Below are positions 8,432 to 34,346 of a stretch of DNA of 34,346 nucleotides, in pieces (the first letter of the stretch is position 1; each line of letters opens with the position of its first letter). The position numbers and the translations under genes were made by a program. The notes beneath the pieces were generated by a model that made no database searches, had not been told where the DNA came from, and worked only from the letters and a program-made list of their open reading frames with translations. The stretch comes from Bacteroidia bacterium (GTDB lineage Bacteria > Bacteroidota > Bacteroidia > NS11-12g > UBA955), in the NCBI GenBank assembly GCA_025450395.1, contig JANWHK010000039.1, forward strand, positions 1 through 34,346. Reading direction: 5' to 3'.

Positions 8432-8893
8432 ATGTCAAACACATACACCAAAATTCATATCCAATTTGTATTTGCAGTCAAATACAGGCATGCCGTCATT
8501 CAGTCGTCATGGAAGAATGAATTATACCGATATATGACAGGGATCGTTCAAAAAAACAAACATAAATTATTAGTGATAAATGGTATGCCGGATCATATTC
8601 ATATATTGGTTGGTCTGCGGCCTTCACAATCAATATCTGATTTACTACAGGATATAAAGGGCAGTTCAAGCAGATGGATCAATGAGGGTAAATTCGTCAA
8701 GGATAAATTTGAATGGCAGGAAGGATATGGAGCATTTTCATATTCCCCTGGTGAATTGGACAATGTAATTAATTATATTAAAAATCAGGAAATACACCAT
8801 GGAAGAATTTCATTCAAAAATGAATACATCCAATTACTTAAGAAATTCAATATTGAATACGATGATAAATATATTTTTAGGGAATTAATTTGA
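8432..8893 (+). CDS. Y1 (HUH) transposase, IS200/IS605-TnpA / RAYT-like
   Basis: HUH motif in GMPDHIHILVGLRPSQSISDLLQDIKGSSSRWIN, and tyrosine motif NYIKNQEIHH. Confidence 0.92.
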   Translation: MSNTYTKIHIQFVFAVKYRHAVIQSSWKNELYRYMTGIVQKNKHKLLVINGMPDHIHILVGLRPSQSISDLLQDIKGSSSRWINEGKFVKDKFEWQEGYGAFSYSPGELDNVINYIKNQEIHHGRISFKNEYIQLLKKFNIEYDDKYIFRELI

Positions 8894-21653: not shown

Positions 21654-21737
21654 ATTGTAATTTGTAACTTGTAACTTGTAAATTGTAATTTGTAAATTGT
21701 AATTGTCCTCCTCCTTCGTACTTCGTCCTTCGTACTT
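21654..21737. repeat. Degenerate 7-nt tandem repeat tract H2
   Basis: ATTGTAA TTTGTAA CTTGTAA CTTGTAA ATTGTAA TTTGTAA ATTGTAA TTGTCCT CCTCCTT CGTACTT CGTCCTT CGTACTT, all in one 7-nt phase. It overlaps the first two bases of the GT39 stop codon. Confidence 0.85.
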
Positions 21738-23466
21738 ATTTCCTCTTGTACACAACAAACCCATTCCTGTCCCACAATTCCTTCAAGGTGCTACAAGTAT
21801 CCAGGCCTTCGCGGTCGTTGGTCTTGGCGATGAAAAAAGCAGGGCGGTCGGTCTTTCCATGTATCAGCCATTCTTTCTGCAGGTCGTCGAGTTCAGCTCT
21901 TTCTTGCTCGCTGAGTTGCAGGAATGAATTCGCATTTTTTTGAGCGAAATAGGATTGGTTCACTTTATATAATCCATCGGTGGATTTGAGGGGTTGGATC
22001 TGCGCGTAAAAATAGGGCGCATAACTCTTGTACCCAGTGTGAAAAATGTAGCAGTTATCCTTGCTGTGGGACTGGAAAAATCCTATGGCGGCACCCTGAG
22101 TATGCTGTTCAATTTTAGGGACCAGCATAATTGAGGCCATTGAAATGACCAGCACATTGCCGAGCAATAAGCAACCGAAGGTGATGATGGGTTTGCCTTT
22201 CCAAAGGTTAATGATCAATAAAACAATACCCAGCATGAGTATCACACCCGGAATGATATCGCTTAAATGCCAGCTGACGGGAGCTGCAAAATTAGCCCGT
22301 GTGAATGCATTGTCGAGCTGGCTCAGGAACCAGGGTTTATAGTAGATCATCAACACCGGAAAAATAATCAATGCGGCAGCAATGAATGTGCCAAGCAGGA
22401 TGAGGCTTAATTTATAATACCACCTGAACCTGAATATGCCATGGTTGATGCTCTCCATTGCATATGCGCCCATAAAAGTGAGCGGTAGCCAGCATAGCGA
22501 TGAATAATGGATGATCTTGGTCTTGACAATGGAGAACAGGATAAGCACAACCCAGAATAAGCACTGCATCGTGGTGCGGAAAAGGTTTTCCTGGTAAGTG
22601 TAAAATTCATTCTGTTTCCAGCCTGCCATGGCGATAATGGAAATGGGGAAGCATCCGATAAGCAATACCAGCGGGTGGTAGTAGATCGGTTGCTGGTGCC
22701 CTGCTACATCCTGCGAGAACAGCTCGAGTTGGTATTGTATGAATTCAACTATGAAATAAGGTCCGTTCCTGAGACTTTCAGGAATGAACCAGATGCTGGT
22801 GACCAAACCCGTAGTGAGGATAAAGATGATGAGGTTGTTTAGGCTGAAAAACCAGGTCATCCGTTTGGCAAATACCATTGAGAACAGAACCAGTAATCCC
22901 ACCAATAAAGCCACCGGTCCCTTGCAAAGGATGGCTATGCCTGTGTAAAGGCCTGCGAGCAGGAAATGCCGGTTCGGGTTATATGCACTGCTGTTAAGAA
23001 GCAGGACTTTGTAGAATTCGTAAATGCTCAGGAAAATGAAGAAGTTAAATACAGGGTCGATCAGGCCGGTCTTGAAATAGAAATGCGGTGTGATGGCTCC
23101 TATGTACCCTAATACCCACCAGTGTGCTATATGGCCCTTGAAAATGGTTCTGCCAATGCGATAGATAAGGCATAATGTCAATATGCCGAACACGACATTC
23201 GGAAAACGGGCGGCAAATTCATTGACCCCGAAAATTTTCATGCTAAGGACCTGCATCCAGATAAAAAGCGGAGGTTTTTCCCAGAAAGCCTGGTAATTGA
23301 TCTGGACCTGTGAATAATTTTGGGTGACCAGCATCTCACGCGCGGATTCGGCGAAATTGATTTCGTCCCAATCGAAAAGATGCACGGAGCCTAGGCATGG
23401 TATGAACAGGATACAACCTATGCAGGTGATCCAAAGATAATGAAAAGGATTGACCTGTTGGTTCAT
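21736..23466 (-). CDS. Glycosyltransferase family 39 / ArnT-like integral membrane protein
   Basis: FDWDEINFAESAREMLVTQNYSQVQINYQAFWEKPPLFIWMQ (DE.....AR.M and KPPL motifs) with many TM segments. Confidence 0.9.
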   Translation of the reverse strand: MNQQVNPFHYLWITCIGCILFIPCLGSVHLFDWDEINFAESAREMLVTQNYSQVQINYQAFWEKPPLFIWMQVLSMKIFGVNEFAARFPNVVFGILTLCLIYRIGRTIFKGHIAHWWVLGYIGAITPHFYFKTGLIDPVFNFFIFLSIYEFYKVLLLNSSAYNPNRHFLLAGLYTGIAILCKGPVALLVGLLVLFSMVFAKRMTWFFSLNNLIIFILTTGLVTSIWFIPESLRNGPYFIVEFIQYQLELFSQDVAGHQQPIYYHPLVLLIGCFPISIIAMAGWKQNEFYTYQENLFRTTMQCLFWVVLILFSIVKTKIIHYSSLCWLPLTFMGAYAMESINHGIFRFRWYYKLSLILLGTFIAAALIIFPVLMIYYKPWFLSQLDNAFTRANFAAPVSWHLSDIIPGVILMLGIVLLIINLWKGKPIITFGCLLLGNVLVISMASIMLVPKIEQHTQGAAIGFFQSHSKDNCYIFHTGYKSYAPYFYAQIQPLKSTDGLYKVNQSYFAQKNANSFLQLSEQERAELDDLQKEWLIHGKTDRPAFFIAKTNDREGLDTCSTLKELWDRNGFVVYKRK

Positions 23467-24653: not shown

Positions 24654-26096
24654 ATGAAAAAAATCAATCTGCTCGTTTTAAAAGCATTTATCGGCCCTTT
24701 TCTCGGGACCTTCTTTATTTCAATGTTTTTATTCCTGATGCTGTTTTTATGGAAATACATTGACGATCTTGTGGGCAAGGGTCTGGAATGGCACGTTGTG
24801 GCGCGACTCTTGTTTTTTTCACTTGCAGATCTTATACCCATGGCTTTGCCTCTGGCTGTGTTGCTTTCCAGCCTGATGACCTTCGGCAATCTGTCGGAAA
24901 GTTATGAGATGGTGGCACTCAAGGCCTCTGGTGTAAGTATTTACAGAGCGCTTATGCCTGCATTCCTTATCATCATTCTGCTGAGTTTTGTGACATTTTA
25001 TGTCTCGAATATCGTGATTCCAAAAGCCAATCTTGAAGCCAAGAGTTTATTGTGGGATATCAGGAATAAAAAACCCGCATTCGACATCAAGGAAGGTGTG
25101 TTCTACAATGGAATAGATGGTTACCAGATCAAGATCGGCAGCAAGGACAAGGATAATGAAACCATCAATGACGTGCTGATCTATGAGATCAAACCCGGTT
25201 ATAGCGAATTGTCCATTGTCAGGGCTGAATCAGGTAAAATGAAATTAAGCGATGACAAACGTCTCTTGTATTTCACGCTGTTTAAAGGTACCCGTTATGA
25301 AGAACTGGTCGAAAATGCGGACTACCAGAAAAACCTGCCTTCCACAGTTACGTATTTTGATGAGCAGAAAATAACTTTTGACCTGAGTGACCTGGACCTG
25401 AAAAAAACCGATAAGGAATTGTTCAAGGGCAGTGCAGTGATGATGAATATCAACGAATTGCAGAAGGCCATAGATACCACAAGGAAGGAAATAAAAAAGA
25501 AAAAAACCGCTGCCAGGGATTTTCTGAGGCCTTATTACCCAGACGTCAGGCACATGATGCAAGGAACGAATGTAAAGGATAGTCCGGCACTGAAGAATGA
25601 CACCATCATAAAGAATTTTTCGAAAGAGAACAGGTATGCCATACTTGAGCAGGCTCTCGGTACGACAAGGAACCTGAAGAGCATGATTGAATCCTGCACA
25701 CAACAATTGGAAGATATCAAAAGTGATGACAGGATGTATACACTCAAGTGGCACGAAAAGTTTACGCTCTCATTTGTATTGATAGTTCTTTTCCTGTTGG
25801 CGGCTCCGCTTGGCACCATTATTCGAAAGGGAGGCATAGGCATGCCCATGGTAGTGTCCATTATCATGTTTATATTGTATTATGTCATCAATATGATTGG
25901 TATAAAAATGGGGAAGGATGGCATCATCGCGGAATGTGTAGGCGCATGGATGGCGAGCTTTGTATTGCTGCCTGTTGGTATATTTGTGCTAAATCGCGCT
26001 GCAAATGAATCCGCTATTTTTGACAAGGATAAATACCAGAAAATGATAGAACGCATCAATATGTTTTTTACAAAGCGAAGAAAAGGGATGAATTGA
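24654..26096 (+). CDS. LptF/LptG (YjgP/YjgQ) family LPS export permease
   Basis: MKKINLLVLKAFIGPFLGTFFISMFLFLMLFLWKYIDDLVGKGL..., PMALPLAVLLSSLMTFGNLSESYEMVALKASGVS, C-terminal TM bundle. Confidence 0.93.
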   Translation: MKKINLLVLKAFIGPFLGTFFISMFLFLMLFLWKYIDDLVGKGLEWHVVARLLFFSLADLIPMALPLAVLLSSLMTFGNLSESYEMVALKASGVSIYRALMPAFLIIILLSFVTFYVSNIVIPKANLEAKSLLWDIRNKKPAFDIKEGVFYNGIDGYQIKIGSKDKDNETINDVLIYEIKPGYSELSIVRAESGKMKLSDDKRLLYFTLFKGTRYEELVENADYQKNLPSTVTYFDEQKITFDLSDLDLKKTDKELFKGSAVMMNINELQKAIDTTRKEIKKKKTAARDFLRPYYPDVRHMMQGTNVKDSPALKNDTIIKNFSKENRYAILEQALGTTRNLKSMIESCTQQLEDIKSDDRMYTLKWHEKFTLSFVLIVLFLLAAPLGTIIRKGGIGMPMVVSIIMFILYYVINMIGIKMGKDGIIAECVGAWMASFVLLPVGIFVLNRAANESAIFDKDKYQKMIERINMFFTKRRKGMN

Positions 26097-26185
26097 TAAT
26101 TGATAATTGATAATGAATAATTGATAATTGACAATGGACAATTGACAATGAATAATTAATAATTAATAATTAATAATTAATAATG
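26091..26185. repeat. Degenerate 7-nt tandem repeat tract H3a
   Basis: AATTGAT AATTGAT AATTGAT AATGAAT AATTGAT AATTGAC AATGGAC AATTGAC AATGAAT AATTAAT (x4) AATG. The LptF/G stop TGA (26094-26096) is in the first unit. Confidence 0.88.
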
Positions 26186-26227: not shown

Positions 26228-26347
26228 ATTGTAATTTGTAACTTGTACTTTGTAACTTCCTCCTCCTCCTTCGTACCTCGTACCTCGTACTTCGTACATT
26301 GGTCTCCAATTGTAACTTGTACTTTGTAACTTCCTCACACCTCGTAC
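26228..26347. repeat. Degenerate 7-nt tandem repeat tract H3b
   Basis: ATTGTAA TTTGTAA CTTGTAC TTTGTAA CTTCCTC CTCCTCC TTCGTAC CTCGTAC CTCGTAC TTCGTAC ..., then a second ATTGTAA CTTGTAC TTTGTAA CTTCCTC block. Confidence 0.82.
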
Positions 26348-26400: not shown

Positions 26401-26434
26401 TTTGGAATTAATCAATAAAAAACCTTTATTTTTG
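26401..26434 (+). promoter_or_regulatory. Candidate Bacteroidota promoter (TTTG ... TATTTTTG)
   Basis: TTTG at 26401-26404, 22-nt spacer, TATTTTTG (TAnnTTTG) at 26427-26434, ATG at 26438. Confidence 0.5.
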
Positions 26435-26437
26435 TCT

Positions 26438-28960
26438 ATGCGTTTTCTTGTGTGTGTGTGCATCTTATTTAATTGTTTTCACTTAAAGGCCCAGAGAGAA
26501 GTTAATGTCTGGCATTTCGGTTCCGGGGCCGGCATCGATTTTAATGCCACTCCACCATTGGTGGTGACGGATGGCAAATTACAAACCATGGAAGGGTGTG
26601 CTAGTATTTGTGATGCTTTTGGCAAGCTCCTGATGTATACGGATGGTGATACGGTTTATAATGGCAATCACCAGATGATGGTCAATGGTTATGGTTTGCA
26701 TGGTGATTATTCTTCAGCCCAGTCAGCCATGATCATCAAGTTGCCGAAAAGCGATTCTCTGTATTTGATATTCAACCCGGCAGAAAACTACGGTATTGTT
26801 ACTGGATTTTATTACAGCGTCGTGAATGTTTATGCGAAGGGAGGAAAAGGGGAGGTAATCACCAAGAATGTATTGTTGAAGGCCAATATGCACACAGAGT
26901 CTGTTTCGGCGGTTAAACATGCGAACGGTGATGATGTTTGGGTGGTTTTCAAGAATGATAATTCAAATGAATTTGTGTCCTACCTGGTGACCCCGCTTGG
27001 TGTGAGTAATGTAATGACTTTCTCTCAACCTGGTCCGACTATCGGGACAGGTAATCCTGCCGGATTTACGTATTGTAGCAAGTTTTCCCCTTCAGGAAAA
27101 AAATATGCCATTTGCATCCCTGCTAAAGGAGTTTGCCTGTATGACTTTGACAATAAAACTGGATATCTTGCTAATCTCATGATTATACCATTGTCGGGTT
27201 GTTATGGAGTTGAATTTTCGCCAAATGAAAAAAAACTATATGCATCTTCTCCGGGGAAGGGTCTTTACCAATATGATATTTCTTCCAATAATCTTTCCAA
27301 CATCATTGCAAGTGAATACCTATTCGCACAAAAAAGTTTTGGATCCATACAATTAGCCCCTGACAAAAAGATATATGTCGCGCAATTAACGTCTAATTAC
27401 CTTACTGTAATCCATTCTCCCAACCTGGCAAAGGCAGCATCAGATTACAGGTATGATGATTTGTTTCTGAAAGGGAGGCTGTCGCAATATGGGTTGCCAC
27501 CCTTTATTTCCACATATTTCAGTGATACGATTATCTCATCAATCAATTACACTGGGAAATGCATAGGCGATGCTTTCCAGTTTGAATGTACAAACATGAA
27601 AAGTGGGGATTCCATTGCCTGGGATTTTGGCGATCCGGGTTCAGGCCAGAATAATTTTTCCCAATTGCTGAAATCATCTCACGTGTATAACTCAACCGGT
27701 AAATTTATTATTCAGGCAGCTATTTTCAGGAAAAACATCAATAACCATTTTGTACCGGATGGAGTATTGGATACCTTCATCATGGTCAGCGGATATCTTG
27801 GTAAAGCGAACGAATATCCTTTAACACTTTCGAAATGTATCAATGATTCTGTTCTTGTACAGGCTGCAAGCGGTGGAACAGGTCTGGGCAAGGTGCTTTG
27901 GAATGATATCCCCGGAAGTATTCTTTCACGCACCATTACAAATCCCGGACTATATGTTGCCACTGTGTACAAAACGGGCTCAAACTGTTTTTACAAGGAC
28001 AGCTTAAATGTGACTGACAAGCTTTACACCTTAAAACCGGATTTGGGACCTGATACTGTATATTGTTTGCCTTTAAACCAGGCACTGAACAAAACACAGG
28101 GAACGCAACTGGCTTATGCGGATAAATTTTTATGGAATACCGGAGCGACAAGCAAGACGATTACCGTTACCAAAACCGGAACATACAGTGTCATTGCTGA
28201 AAACAATAATAAATGTCCAAGTGCGGATACCATTCTTGTTTCAATAGCCTATTTTTCTGATTATACCAGGCTGCGCGATACGGCTTTCTGTAAGGATAAT
28301 AACCTGAATAAATTAACACTGAAAGTAAATAATTATCAGTCGGTTGCCTGGAACACGGGTGAAAGTGGAACTGTGGTGACTATTGCGTCATCGGGTAAAT
28401 ATTGGTATACGATAAGGAATCAATGTGGAATTCTAACAGACAGTTTTGATGTGCAGTTAATGGATGCACCGGTTGTTGATCTTGGAAAGGACCTGACGGT
28501 TTGTTCCGCCAATGGTTTTGAATTGAAAAGCAATGTGAGCGGAAATTCATACTTGTGGTTGCCTGGAGGTGAAATATCACAGTCCATCATCTCTTATGAC
28601 TACGGAATGATTTCACTTGAGGTAGGAAACACGATTGGTTGTAAAGGCAGGGATGAAATATTCATCAATGACAGTTGCAGGCAGGAATGTTTTGTGCCGA
28701 ATGTCTTCACCCCGAATACTGATGGTTTAAATGATGTATTTAAACCCGCCAATAATGATATTGGGTCAAAAGGTTATGTCTTCAGGGTCTATGACCGCTG
28801 GGGGAGTATATTGTTTGAAACAGACAATGTCAAGGCCGGATGGAATGGCATGGTCAATGATAATCTTTGTGTCTCAGGAATTTATTTTTATACCCTTGAA
28901 TTTGTCACCACCAAACGCAAAACCATCCACATGAAAGGCACATTTACTTTGTTGTATTGA
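26438..28960 (+). CDS. Secreted PKD-containing protein with gliding motility-associated (T9SS type B) C-terminal domain
   Basis: Signal peptide MRFLVCVCILFNCFHLKAQ, PKD-like SIAWDFGDPGSGQ...SHVYNSTGKF, C-terminal CFVPNVFTPNTDGLNDVFKP...VYDRWGSILFETDN...GWNG...VSGIYFYTLEF. Confidence 0.92.
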   Translation: MRFLVCVCILFNCFHLKAQREVNVWHFGSGAGIDFNATPPLVVTDGKLQTMEGCASICDAFGKLLMYTDGDTVYNGNHQMMVNGYGLHGDYSSAQSAMIIKLPKSDSLYLIFNPAENYGIVTGFYYSVVNVYAKGGKGEVITKNVLLKANMHTESVSAVKHANGDDVWVVFKNDNSNEFVSYLVTPLGVSNVMTFSQPGPTIGTGNPAGFTYCSKFSPSGKKYAICIPAKGVCLYDFDNKTGYLANLMIIPLSGCYGVEFSPNEKKLYASSPGKGLYQYDISSNNLSNIIASEYLFAQKSFGSIQLAPDKKIYVAQLTSNYLTVIHSPNLAKAASDYRYDDLFLKGRLSQYGLPPFISTYFSDTIISSINYTGKCIGDAFQFECTNMKSGDSIAWDFGDPGSGQNNFSQLLKSSHVYNSTGKFIIQAAIFRKNINNHFVPDGVLDTFIMVSGYLGKANEYPLTLSKCINDSVLVQAASGGTGLGKVLWNDIPGSILSRTITNPGLYVATVYKTGSNCFYKDSLNVTDKLYTLKPDLGPDTVYCLPLNQALNKTQGTQLAYADKFLWNTGATSKTITVTKTGTYSVIAENNNKCPSADTILVSIAYFSDYTRLRDTAFCKDNNLNKLTLKVNNYQSVAWNTGESGTVVTIASSGKYWYTIRNQCGILTDSFDVQLMDAPVVDLGKDLTVCSANGFELKSNVSGNSYLWLPGGEISQSIISYDYGMISLEVGNTIGCKGRDEIFINDSCRQECFVPNVFTPNTDGLNDVFKPANNDIGSKGYVFRVYDRWGSILFETDNVKAGWNGMVNDNLCVSGIYFYTLEFVTTKRKTIHMKGTFTLLY

Positions 28961-29011
28961 TCCCTTTGTTCCTATGGTTATACCTCTGAATTAGGGTTTG
29001 ATAATTACTTT

Positions 29012-29175
29012 CATTATTCATTATTCATTATTCATTATTCATTATCCATTATCAATTATCAATTATCCATAACTCATAATTCATAATTCCTCATTTGTAA
29101 CTTGTAACTTGTAACTTGTAACTTGTAACTTGTAATTTGTAACTTGTAATTTGTAACTTGTAATTTGTAACTTGT
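29012..29175. repeat. Degenerate 7-nt tandem repeat tract H4 (longest)
   Basis: CATTATT x4, CATTATC x2, AATTATC x2, CATAACT, CATAATT x2, CCTCATT, then 11 TGTAAYT units, all in one continuous 7-nt phase. Reaches the stop codon of the minus-strand gene at 29175. Confidence 0.92.
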
Positions 29176-31271
29176 CAAAGTCTTATTCCCCAAATTCCCC
29201 TGCCGAAAGTCGAGGCATACAACACACCTTCATGTTCAAAATATTTTAATTCCGTAACGATGGTTGCCGGAAATTCATCTCCGAACGGTTCCCACTTCCC
29301 GGCCTTTAAAACAAATACACCATTGTTGTTGCCGCATATCCACTGGTTTTTAGCACACACTATTGTATTCGTTGGCACATTGGGCAAGCCATCTGACTGG
29401 TTGACGAAGGTCTGGCCACCGTCATCAGAAAAGTAGACCTTGTGAAGCCCGGAATTTTTTTTGTCAAAGGCCTCCAGGGTGATGGCAATTTGTCCATCCT
29501 GGTTTATGAAAATATCAGTGATGCTTCTCCAACTCAAAATCGGTAAACGGTTTGTATAATCAAGCCATGTCTGGCCACCATCTGTCGTGTGAAATAACTT
29601 GTTTTTTAATTCTCCCCCCCAGGTCGCATCATCCTTGCACAACCATATTTCATTCGCGTTGTCGGGATTGACCCAGAATGCTTTTATTTTCCGGCTTGCA
29701 TCCAAACGGGAGGTCAGTATTTCAAAATATTTGCCTTCCGCTTTTTTGTATAAATGCAGGTTAGCAAGGTAAAAAGTCCTGGATTCACTGTGGTAACTCA
29801 TCCTGAAATCATGTCCTGTTTCAGTTCCGGCGTGTTTGTATTCAAAAGTGGAACCGGCATCACGCGTGGTATAATTCATCATGGCAAAACCTGTGGCAAA
29901 ACCGGTACTGTCATTCAATGCTGCAACCCTTCCGCCATCGCCATACAATTTTGTACAATACCAGGCACCTCTTTTTAAAGTAAAAATGCCATTATCCTGG
30001 GTGCCGCACATCATATATCCCTTTGCGGATTTGTCAAACCCGAAGACCATGCAGGTATTCAGGTTCACCGATTGATTGGTGAGGGATACCCATGTTTGTC
30101 CCTCATCACCTGAAACATCCACACCCCCGTCAGTGGCAAGGTATACCTTGTCCTTGTAAAAAGTGATGCCGGTGATATCATCATGTGCGTTATTGGCTTG
30201 TCCCTTTACAGGATGGGTGACCTGGATGAAATTCATGCCATTATCTTTACTTTTATATAACCTCATGGTGCCCAGATACAGAGTTTCAATGCGACTGGCC
30301 TCATCATAATGAGTTGCAAACTTCAATCTGGGAACATTCAATTGGCCGGCATTAAGGTTTTTTATCCTGTACTTCCTTAAGCTGTCAGTTGAAGATTCAA
30401 GAATATATACCGATCCGTCCTGGGCAGCTACGTAAAACCTGTTTCTTGATTTTTGGGAAAAAGTGGCCATGTAACTGGAATATTCACTTTTGACTTTTCC
30501 AAAATGTTTACAGATATCATTTGTTATGTCTTCCCAGTTTTGGCCACCGTCCCGGCTGTATAAGACGCCATTGCCACATACAAAAATAGAGTTTTCGTCA
30601 TGCGGGTTGACCACAATCGATTTAAGGGTGAATCCCGCTTCATGTACCTTGTTCCATGTTTTGGCGCCATCGGCTGAAAAAAAGATACGACGGTCACTGA
30701 TGGACAGCAGTTTTTTTTCCTTCTTCTTGTCAATGATGGCGATATCCCTGGATTGTTGAAGATTGTATTCTTCGGGTTCAAATTGCAGGCTGTTCCTTAT
30801 CCAGGTTTCACCGTTGTCGAAAGATTCTATTAGTCCGTAACCATATTGTCTTGAATTGCCTATATCCAGCGCTGTACATGCTATCAAATGGTTTTCGTCA
30901 CTGTTGAACCGGATGATCTGGTATATGCCTGTTGCAAATGGAAACCTGAGTTTCTGTATCCAGGTTTTACCGTTGTCGGTGGTCTTGAACAGTCCCGAAG
31001 TGGCATGACCGATCAATATCTCCCCGTCATTTTTTGGGTGTAAATTCACACAGATAAACCTGCCTGCGCCATGTGGGGTTATTTCGCCATTCTCGGCCAT
31101 GGGTTCAGGCGCTCCAAAGGGGCCTAAAGGTTCCCAGGTGCCAAATTCCTGTATCCTTAGTGAAACAAGAGCCTTCCCGGTTTTCTCTGCAGGAATATTT
31201 TTAGGTCTTTTGCTCTTGCATTGAGCAAAAATGAGACTTACACATAAACAAATAAATATGCACTTATTCAT
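29175..31271 (-). CDS. BNR/sortilin-like beta-propeller lipoprotein (sialidase/photosystem-stability-like repeats)
   Basis: Lipobox MNKCIFICLCVSLIFAQC. Repeated TTDNGKTWIQ, SFDNGETWIR, SRDGGQNWED, SGDEGQTWVS, TTDGGQTWLD, SDDGGQTFVN Asp-box motifs. Confidence 0.88.
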   Translation of the reverse strand: MNKCIFICLCVSLIFAQCKSKRPKNIPAEKTGKALVSLRIQEFGTWEPLGPFGAPEPMAENGEITPHGAGRFICVNLHPKNDGEILIGHATSGLFKTTDNGKTWIQKLRFPFATGIYQIIRFNSDENHLIACTALDIGNSRQYGYGLIESFDNGETWIRNSLQFEPEEYNLQQSRDIAIIDKKKEKKLLSISDRRIFFSADGAKTWNKVHEAGFTLKSIVVNPHDENSIFVCGNGVLYSRDGGQNWEDITNDICKHFGKVKSEYSSYMATFSQKSRNRFYVAAQDGSVYILESSTDSLRKYRIKNLNAGQLNVPRLKFATHYDEASRIETLYLGTMRLYKSKDNGMNFIQVTHPVKGQANNAHDDITGITFYKDKVYLATDGGVDVSGDEGQTWVSLTNQSVNLNTCMVFGFDKSAKGYMMCGTQDNGIFTLKRGAWYCTKLYGDGGRVAALNDSTGFATGFAMMNYTTRDAGSTFEYKHAGTETGHDFRMSYHSESRTFYLANLHLYKKAEGKYFEILTSRLDASRKIKAFWVNPDNANEIWLCKDDATWGGELKNKLFHTTDGGQTWLDYTNRLPILSWRSITDIFINQDGQIAITLEAFDKKNSGLHKVYFSDDGGQTFVNQSDGLPNVPTNTIVCAKNQWICGNNNGVFVLKAGKWEPFGDEFPATIVTELKYFEHEGVLYASTFGRGIWGIRL

Positions 31272-32031
31272 ATTGTTTTTCGGCTTCATCCATCATTTTA
31301 TGTGCAAGATTCAGGCCAAGGTATTTATCTATGGCATTGTGCAGGATATAGAGGAAAGGGGTCACCACAATGGCCACCGAAAATTTATAGATGTAATTCA
31401 TGATACCTATGGCAAGCACCTGCTTGATGGACCAATTATTCCCGATATAAAACGCGATGAACAGTACCACAAAACTGTCAATGAATTGGGAGACCAGTGT
31501 GGAACCCGTACTTCTCAGCCAAAGATATTTTTCGCCGGATTTTTCCCTTATAAAATGGAAAACATACACATCCACCAATTGCCCGACAAGGAATGCCACC
31601 AGTGAACCGATGATGATCCACAACCCCTGTCCGAATACAGCGCTATAGGCATTCTGCATGTCCGGTACCTGTTTTGTTGAGCCACTGCCAATCCACCATC
31701 CTGCCGGTGTGACCTTGATGGCAAGAAATACCATGATAAACGCATAGGCGATCATTGCCGCAGTGATATAACTCAACAGCCTCACACCTTTTTTACCGTA
31801 ATATTCATTGATGATATCTGTCATGATGAATACCACGGGCCAAAGCAATACACCACAGGTCAGTTCAAATGAAAGATGTTCAAATCCGAGCAGGTTGATA
31901 TCGAATTTCCTGAAATTAAATGTGTTTTCAAATGAAAATATCTTGGCGCCGATAAATTCTGCGACAATGGCATTGGTGACGAAGAAACTGCCAAGTATGA
32001 TGAATAATTTTGTTTTTTTGTCCAGTGTCAA
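31264..32031 (-). CDS. Queuosine precursor transporter, YhhQ/VUT family
   Basis: VVFIMTDIINEYYGKKGVR, DVYVFHFIREKSGEKYLWLRSTGSTLVSQFIDSFVVLFIAF, multi-TM. Confidence 0.92.
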   Translation of the reverse strand: MTLDKKTKLFIILGSFFVTNAIVAEFIGAKIFSFENTFNFRKFDINLLGFEHLSFELTCGVLLWPVVFIMTDIINEYYGKKGVRLLSYITAAMIAYAFIMVFLAIKVTPAGWWIGSGSTKQVPDMQNAYSAVFGQGLWIIIGSLVAFLVGQLVDVYVFHFIREKSGEKYLWLRSTGSTLVSQFIDSFVVLFIAFYIGNNWSIKQVLAIGIMNYIYKFSVAIVVTPFLYILHNAIDKYLGLNLAHKMMDEAEKQYE

Positions 32032-33446: not shown

Positions 33447-33526
33447 AGGACAATATTAGGGCTTTTTTGGAAAAGAAAGACAAGCTTTTTCAATCAATAA
33501 ATAGTAATCGGTTGAAATTTTTAAAA

Positions 33527-33554
33527 TTCGTAACCCGTTATTCGTAACCCGTAA
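33527..33554. repeat. Degenerate 7-nt tandem repeat tract H5 (short)
   Basis: TTCGTAA CCCGTTA TTCGTAA CCCGTAA, ending 6 nt before the stop of the OmpA-type gene. Confidence 0.7.
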
Positions 33555-33560
33555 CTATCC

Positions 33561-34346
33561 CTACAACTCCAGTATCACAAACTCCACCCGCCTGTTATTA
33601 TACCGACCCTCTTCTGTATCATTGGTATCAATAGGCTGTGTCTGCCCATATCCCTTGAATTCCAGCCTGTTCTCTTCAATGCCATTATCGATCAGGAATT
33701 GTACGACCGCTTTGGCGCGGTTTTCGGAAAGGGTATGGTTGTCTTTTTTGTTGCCTTTGTTGTCCGTGTGTCCGCTGATCTCTACGCGCATTTCCGGGAA
33801 CTTCAGCATGAGGTCCACGAGGCTGTCAAGGGTTTCAAACGATTCATCCAGCAAGGTCCATTTACCTGTTTCAAATTGTATGTTCGTGAGTATGAGTTTC
33901 TGCCCGATCTTCGGATGCAGGAAAATATCTTCTTCAGGCAAGGGCATCGTATCGACCTTTGCTTTTTCATTAAGTTCACAACCCGAAGCGTTACAGGGGC
34001 ACTCATAGGCACTTGTTTCCTCCATCAGCATCAGGTCGTCTATATAGTAGTAAATCTCGAAGATATGGTCGCTTGCAGTGCTGTCCAGCTTCAACATCCT
34101 GAATGAATCCTTCGGGGTAAAATTGCCGAAATACAAGTATTTCTCGCCACCGTTTGCTGTAAAACTACCGCTGATAACCATCCATTCTTCGCGACATCCC
34201 AATACAATACCTGCATGCGTTTGCAGTACAATATCGTCAGGGTCGTCATCCTCTGCTTTACCGAAAGTTTTCAGTTCATTGGTGCACAAGACAGATACGC
34301 CATTGGCGGCATGCGTATTTTCAGCCTTTAATTTCAACTTGAATTG
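33561..34346 (-). CDS. OmpA-family protein, truncated at its 5' end by the window edge
   Basis: C-terminal OmpA domain LTNIQFETGKWTLLDESFETLDSLVDLMLKFPEMRVEISGHTDNKGNKKDNHTLSENRAKAVVQFLIDNGIEENRLEFKGYGQTQPI...RRVEFVIL. Frame open to the window edge. Confidence 0.92.
   Translation of the reverse strand, partial: QFKLKLKAENTHAANGVSVLCTNELKTFGKAEDDDPDDIVLQTHAGIVLGCREEWMVISGSFTANGGEKYLYFGNFTPKDSFRMLKLDSTASDHIFEIYYYIDDLMLMEETSAYECPCNASGCELNEKAKVDTMPLPEEDIFLHPKIGQKLILTNIQFETGKWTLLDESFETLDSLVDLMLKFPEMRVEISGHTDNKGNKKDNHTLSENRAKAVVQFLIDNGIEENRLEFKGYGQTQPIDTNDTEEGRYNNRRVEFVILEL

Follow-up and report, generated by a model that had tools for sequence, protein, structure and literature searches.

Roughly a hundred heptamer arrays occupy intergenic sites in an uncultured Bacteroidota bacterium

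A heptamer tract between two convergent genes

We analysed a 34,346-nt stretch of DNA (the window), in which a tract of heptamers at 29012-29175 occupies most of the 214-bp gap separating two convergent genes (Table 1). The sense strand of the tract (GTTACAA, ATTATGA, AATTGAT) is aligned with the minus-strand gene at 29175-31289, and its 3′ end on the plus strand shares one base with the stop codon of this gene (TGA, plus-strand positions 29175-29177). The first-pass annotation had described a tract that keeps its 7-nt phase while its words switch in blocks, and this was borne out: the tract consists of 23 heptamers and a trailing TGT, with the phase unbroken throughout and the words following one another on the plus strand in the order of the three tract rows of Table 1. 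TRF, run on the window, divided the tract into two period-7 arrays, at 29010-29089 and 29095-29175. Read on the minus strand, the words form the chain TACAAGT, GAGGAAT, TATGAAT, TATGGAT, AATTGAT, AATGAAT, in which most neighbours, aligned in register, differ at one or two positions; the odd heptad GAGGAAT departs from this. Because identity within the TGTAAYT block is higher at lag 14 (0.985) than at lag 7 (0.919), part of this block is a 14-nt repeat. The RNA of the array was no more structured than shuffles (z +1.7), and no terminator or known RNA family was found for it.

Further heptamer arrays lie in the same window (Table 1). The window also contains, at 8432-8893, an IS200-like Y1 transposase (PF01797), present in one copy and possibly a RAYT. 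GTAG-led palindromes occur in the genome as well, for example GTAGGGGTTGAA..TTCAACCC and GTAGGGGCAGAA..TTCTGCCC.

Table 1. Heptamer arrays and neighbouring genes in the window
Position	Strand	Feature
21655..21737	-	Second array set, with TTGTAAY words followed by TTCGTAC words, in sense relative to gene 21736-23466
26091..26184	+	AATTGAT-type array, in sense to the LptF/LptG gene 24654-26096 and overlapping its stop
26229..26297	-	TTGTAAY and TCGTACY arrays, deeper in the gap after the LptF/LptG gene 24654-26096
26402..28960	+	852-aa convergent gene whose product ends in a CHU_C type IX secretion domain; stop 49 nt from the window tract
29012..29088	-	Window tract: AT-rich heptamer blocks (CATTATT x4, CATTATC x2, AATTATC x2, CATAACT, CATAATT x2 on +)
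29089..29095	-	Window tract: lone odd heptad CCTCATT, in phase, separating the two main word groups
29096..29175	-	Window tract: 11 TGTAAYT units and TGT, with GTTACAA/ATTACAA in sense; in part a 14-nt repeat
29175..31289	-	704-aa gene, Sortilin-Vps10/BNR-like; stop codon abutted by the window tract, tract in sense
33526..33555	-	Short heptamer pair (ATTCGTAACCCGTT, ~2 copies), sense TTACGA; stop codon of gene 33561-34337 ~5 nt away, same orientation

Abundance, placement and strand of the arrays

The genome is a 2.46-Mb assembly of 211 contigs (68.5% complete), and arrays were sought in 895 kb (36%) of it by mismatch-tolerant detection, with order-4 Markov sequence as the control and with genes taken as long open reading frames (ORFs), not as gene-finder calls. 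At the chosen threshold 92 arrays had period 7, and a further 37, 26 and 14 had periods 14, 21 and 28, respectively; the other periods (3-6 and 8-13) gave 0-2 arrays each, with none at 4, 5, 8, 9 and 13. The genome-wide excess of period 7 that had been proposed as a check on the tract is thus present in these 895 kb, as the Markov control yielded no period-7 array at the same threshold. Merging left 91 arrays, 84 of which belong to seven word families (AATTGAT, TTATGAA, TTACAAN, TACGANN, CRGTRAT, AGTACGA and TAGGANN) that occur on both strands; the exact family boundaries depend on our grouping, the periodicity result does not. Nine of the 91 arrays lie inside ORFs, some of which are doubtful short ones. 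As beyond-chance 7-nt tandems, mainly intergenic and present at many loci, the arrays match in these respects a heptanucleotide long simple sequence repeat of the LSSR/STRR kind. Their sense strand is composed of A 0.42, C 0.12, G 0.17 and T 0.30, and G3 tracts are absent from the main words.

Successive anchors of the same family were spaced 7 nt apart in 371 of 384 cases, and amplification proceeded by 7 or 14 nt at a time. A common phase between arrays of different families in one gap was tested for and none was found. Since neighbouring arrays of different words elsewhere keep no common phase, the phase-perfect word switch in the window tract reflects local contiguity and is not a genome-wide rule.

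We noted a strict placement of the arrays relative to genes. A strand was defined for 73 intergenic arrays; on the sense strand, 44 of these have their 5′ end within 10 nt of an ORF, 42 of them at stop codons, and 1 has its 3′ end that close. Within 10 nt of stop codons 42 arrays are in sense and 0 in antisense, against ~10 and ~9 for random placement. Start codons are avoided (2 arrays nearby versus 8 expected), divergent gaps hold few arrays, and the genes seen to flank arrays are unrelated to each other. Because the family strands had first been chosen from stop-adjacent arrays, we reran the strand test using words derived from one half of the contigs, and this split-half retest gave a mean of 20.9 arrays on the correct strand versus 1.1 on the wrong one. 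On ten previously unused contigs, the gene on the 5′ side of copies of a dispersed 30-mer (see below) was in sense in 8 of 9 cases. This strand polarity, which was unexpected, the stop anchoring and the words common to different loci are new beyond the first-pass annotation.

Three candidate causes fail to account for the polarity: stop-codon supply, with three families lacking sense stops; RNA folding, for which sense and antisense showed no clear difference (p = 0.13); and replication strand, with both genes of convergent pairs following the rule. Outside this genome, we used a sample of 120 stretches from many phyla, selected only for TTATGAR x3. Here, 81 array ends fell no more than 10 nt from the 3′ end of a gene (51 ± 5 expected); among those near gene 3′ ends the TTATGAR word was in sense in 30 and in antisense in 17, and the sense strand had more G than C. 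By this sample, the placement rule also holds elsewhere, in weaker form.

Origin and spread of the arrays

In the nearest relative compared, G013, the same two genes are convergent with 11 bp between their stops and no array; the 704-aa protein shares 62% amino-acid identity with its G013 ortholog. Nine further orthologous loci carried no array above the detection threshold (ten congeners with G013), and in the G001 ortholog a degenerate purine-rich heptamer run lies directly 3′ of the stop. As the nearest relative has the same gene pair without the array, the window array is a lineage-specific gain. Here a 20-mer of the TTACAAN family matches 129 times, compared with 2 times in G013 and never in 15 other congeners, and AATNGAY matches 104 times versus 3 in G013, the G013 counts being lower bounds since its contigs break in arrays. 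Congeners carry period-7 arrays built from other words, and the copy bursts are lineage-specific. A universal vocabulary was rejected, as TTACAAN x3 occurred in only 5 of the 297 genomes of a phylum survey and the reversed control also matched, 81 times in one genome. That control pattern brought up an AACATTG heptamer burst (81 matches) in a member of another family of Bacteroidota (G135; loci L313, L317, L321 and L324).

Exact copies of a 30-mer of mixed TACGA words are present at 19 loci. The outer flanks of this mixed-word core (30-32 nt) are unrelated, and short linkers recur: the core is preceded by GGAAT and followed by TTGGAACC or GGGGGAACC. Since slippage acting separately at every locus could not be expected to yield an exact 30-mer at 19 loci, we infer that blocks were copied between loci. 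In a check for phage carriage the core had no match in viral contigs. Twelve stretches of viral contigs (L381-L392) contain TTACAAR x3 arrays.

Our preferred explanation, to which we assign a probability of about 0.6, is that the window tract belongs, as one array among many, to a lineage-specific heptanucleotide satellite of the LSSR/STRR kind that has spread through the intergenic DNA of the species. Arrays would gain and lose whole units (7, 14 or 21 nt at a time) through slipped-strand copying or unequal exchange. A point mutation would alter one unit, and local re-amplification would turn it into a block, switching words block by block with the phase intact; mixed-word blocks would also be copied from locus to locus. 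Arrays would persist mainly just 3′ of stop codons, where a change of length would be harmless, so that slippage would be the growth step and neutrality the reason for persistence. The 1-2-base word steps and the lag-14 excess fit a course in which units first acquire point mutations and whole-unit blocks are then re-amplified. Of the two origins offered by the first-pass annotation, the amplification of mutated units agrees with these word steps and with copying by 7 and 14 nt, whereas a single 7-nt template is disfavoured by the 14-nt higher-order alternations and the several word families. A growth gradient with the newest units at one end was rejected, period-7 identity being equal in the proximal (0.79) and distal (0.80) halves. 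MutS is present in the genome, and 7-nt loops are generally held to escape MutS.

The unit-phased periodicity, the common vocabulary, the exact copies at many loci, the empty site in the nearest relative, the stop anchoring and the polarity were all observed directly. Slippage at each locus falls short by itself, since the seven common families and the identical 30-mer at 19 loci need copying between loci. The polarity (44 of 73 arrays anchored by the 5′ end versus 1 by the 3′ end) is not predicted by slippage and neutrality, and the satellite explanation does not account for the unit length of 7.

Arrays with a role in the sense RNA directly 3′ of the stop codon, for example as protein sites affecting mRNA 3′ ends, termination or re-initiation, would be kept in position and strand by selection, which agrees with the strict orientation near stops (42 versus 0) and with the same placement published for the heptamers of Xanthomonas and Nostoc (PMC4692102), whose G-rich words are unrelated to these. 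We nevertheless consider such a function unlikely, because the words vary between congeners and between loci, the orthologous locus has no above-threshold array in ten congeners, the flanking genes seen are unrelated, and the RNA is unremarkable in structure, with no terminator and with sense and antisense folding alike. A doubtful, broader possibility is a word-independent directional process that, in several phyla, lays fixed-strand heptamer arrays from gene ends, with the 5′ end anchored at the stop and the 3′ end growing outward; if true, the published quadruplex-based reading of the placement would be a special case.

The anchored 5′ end and free 3′ end, the exact dispersed core with its recurring linkers, and the Y1 transposase in the window would also suit templated or transposase-mediated insertion that adds repeats on a fixed strand at the gene 3′ boundary. 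This is improbable, however: no reverse transcriptase (RVT_1) was found in the genome, which is 68.5% complete, the 14-nt higher-order repeats and several families oppose one template, no target duplication was seen, and the transposase is single copy and better suited by the separate GTAG-led palindromes. More improbable still is that the polarity is a by-product of stop codons, arrays with TAA, TAG or TGA in every sense frame being tolerated where they run over the end of a gene. AATTGAT, TTATGAA, CAGTAAT and ATTAGGA words have sense stops, and some genes terminate inside an array, but TTACAAN, TACGANN and AGTACGA words have none; TTACAAN even has an antisense stop, yet is in sense in 12 of 12 anchored arrays, as is TACGANN in 13 of 13. 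The stop-free families refute this reading as the sole cause, and it may contribute for the other families. An assembly or chance artefact can practically be discounted, for although the genome is metagenome-assembled in 211 contigs with some arrays at contig ends, arrays also lie within contigs between intact genes, other periods yielded almost no arrays, and the Markov control yielded none.

Known heptamer systems

Scattered reports of heptamer arrays go back decades, and we know of no cause given for the number seven, the placement or the spread. The STRR sequences of cyanobacteria (Calothrix PCC 7601) are tandem heptanucleotides in intergenic DNA, as are the arrays described here; the words and the phylum differ. 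The likeness to STRR suggested by the first-pass annotation was apt, but its statement that no characterised equivalent was known from Bacteroidota has to be corrected, since TAACTGA heptamers have been described in Beggiatoaceae, Cyanobacteria and five Bacteroidetes (MacGregor 2015, PMC4679880), and TTATGAR x3 was present in many Bacteroidota in our scan of GTDB genomes. TTATGAR x3 arrays (L166-L285) were seen in Bacteroidota, Cyanobacteria, Treponema, Lentisphaerae, Chloroflexi and candidate phyla, often beside other heptamer arrays.

The TAACTGA repeats are species-specific intergenic direct repeats of up to 43 copies and, like the arrays here, have other heptamers alongside and are absent from the shorter gaps of close relatives (PMC4679880). 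In Beggiatoaceae, however, they lie before start codons and have one dominant word, whereas the arrays here follow stop codons and comprise seven families, TAACTGA not among them. According to PMC4679880 and PMC4692102, the LSSR surveys of Mrazek et al. 2007 have heptanucleotides as the most abundant class and propose slippage as the cause; those descriptions do not mention the block switching and the sharing of words between loci seen here. A telomerase-like or other RNA-templated system would use a single template word and a reverse transcriptase; the arrays have several word families and 14-nt steps, and RVT_1 was unmatched in the 68.5% complete genome. REP/RAYT elements are GTAG-led hairpins near a Y1 transposase; the RNA of the window array is unstructured, and the GTAG-led palindromes of this genome are a repeat separate from the heptamer arrays.

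The closest likeness in placement is to the heptamers GGGAATC and GGGGA(C/T)T of Xanthomonas and Nostoc PCC 7120, which form quadruplexes, prefer four units and, as here, lie stop-proximal on the coding strand (Rehm et al. 2015, PMC4692102). The words here differ in being AT-rich and not G-rich or quadruplex-capable, in the several families per array and in the orthologous locus of congeners, which has no array. AT-rich arrays that follow a placement rule published for G-rich words make the rule separable from quadruplex formation, and congeners with and without arrays make gain, growth and polarity testable. The heptamer arrays are, in sum, an already known kind of bacterial repeat, here with a strict placement and with words copied from site to site.
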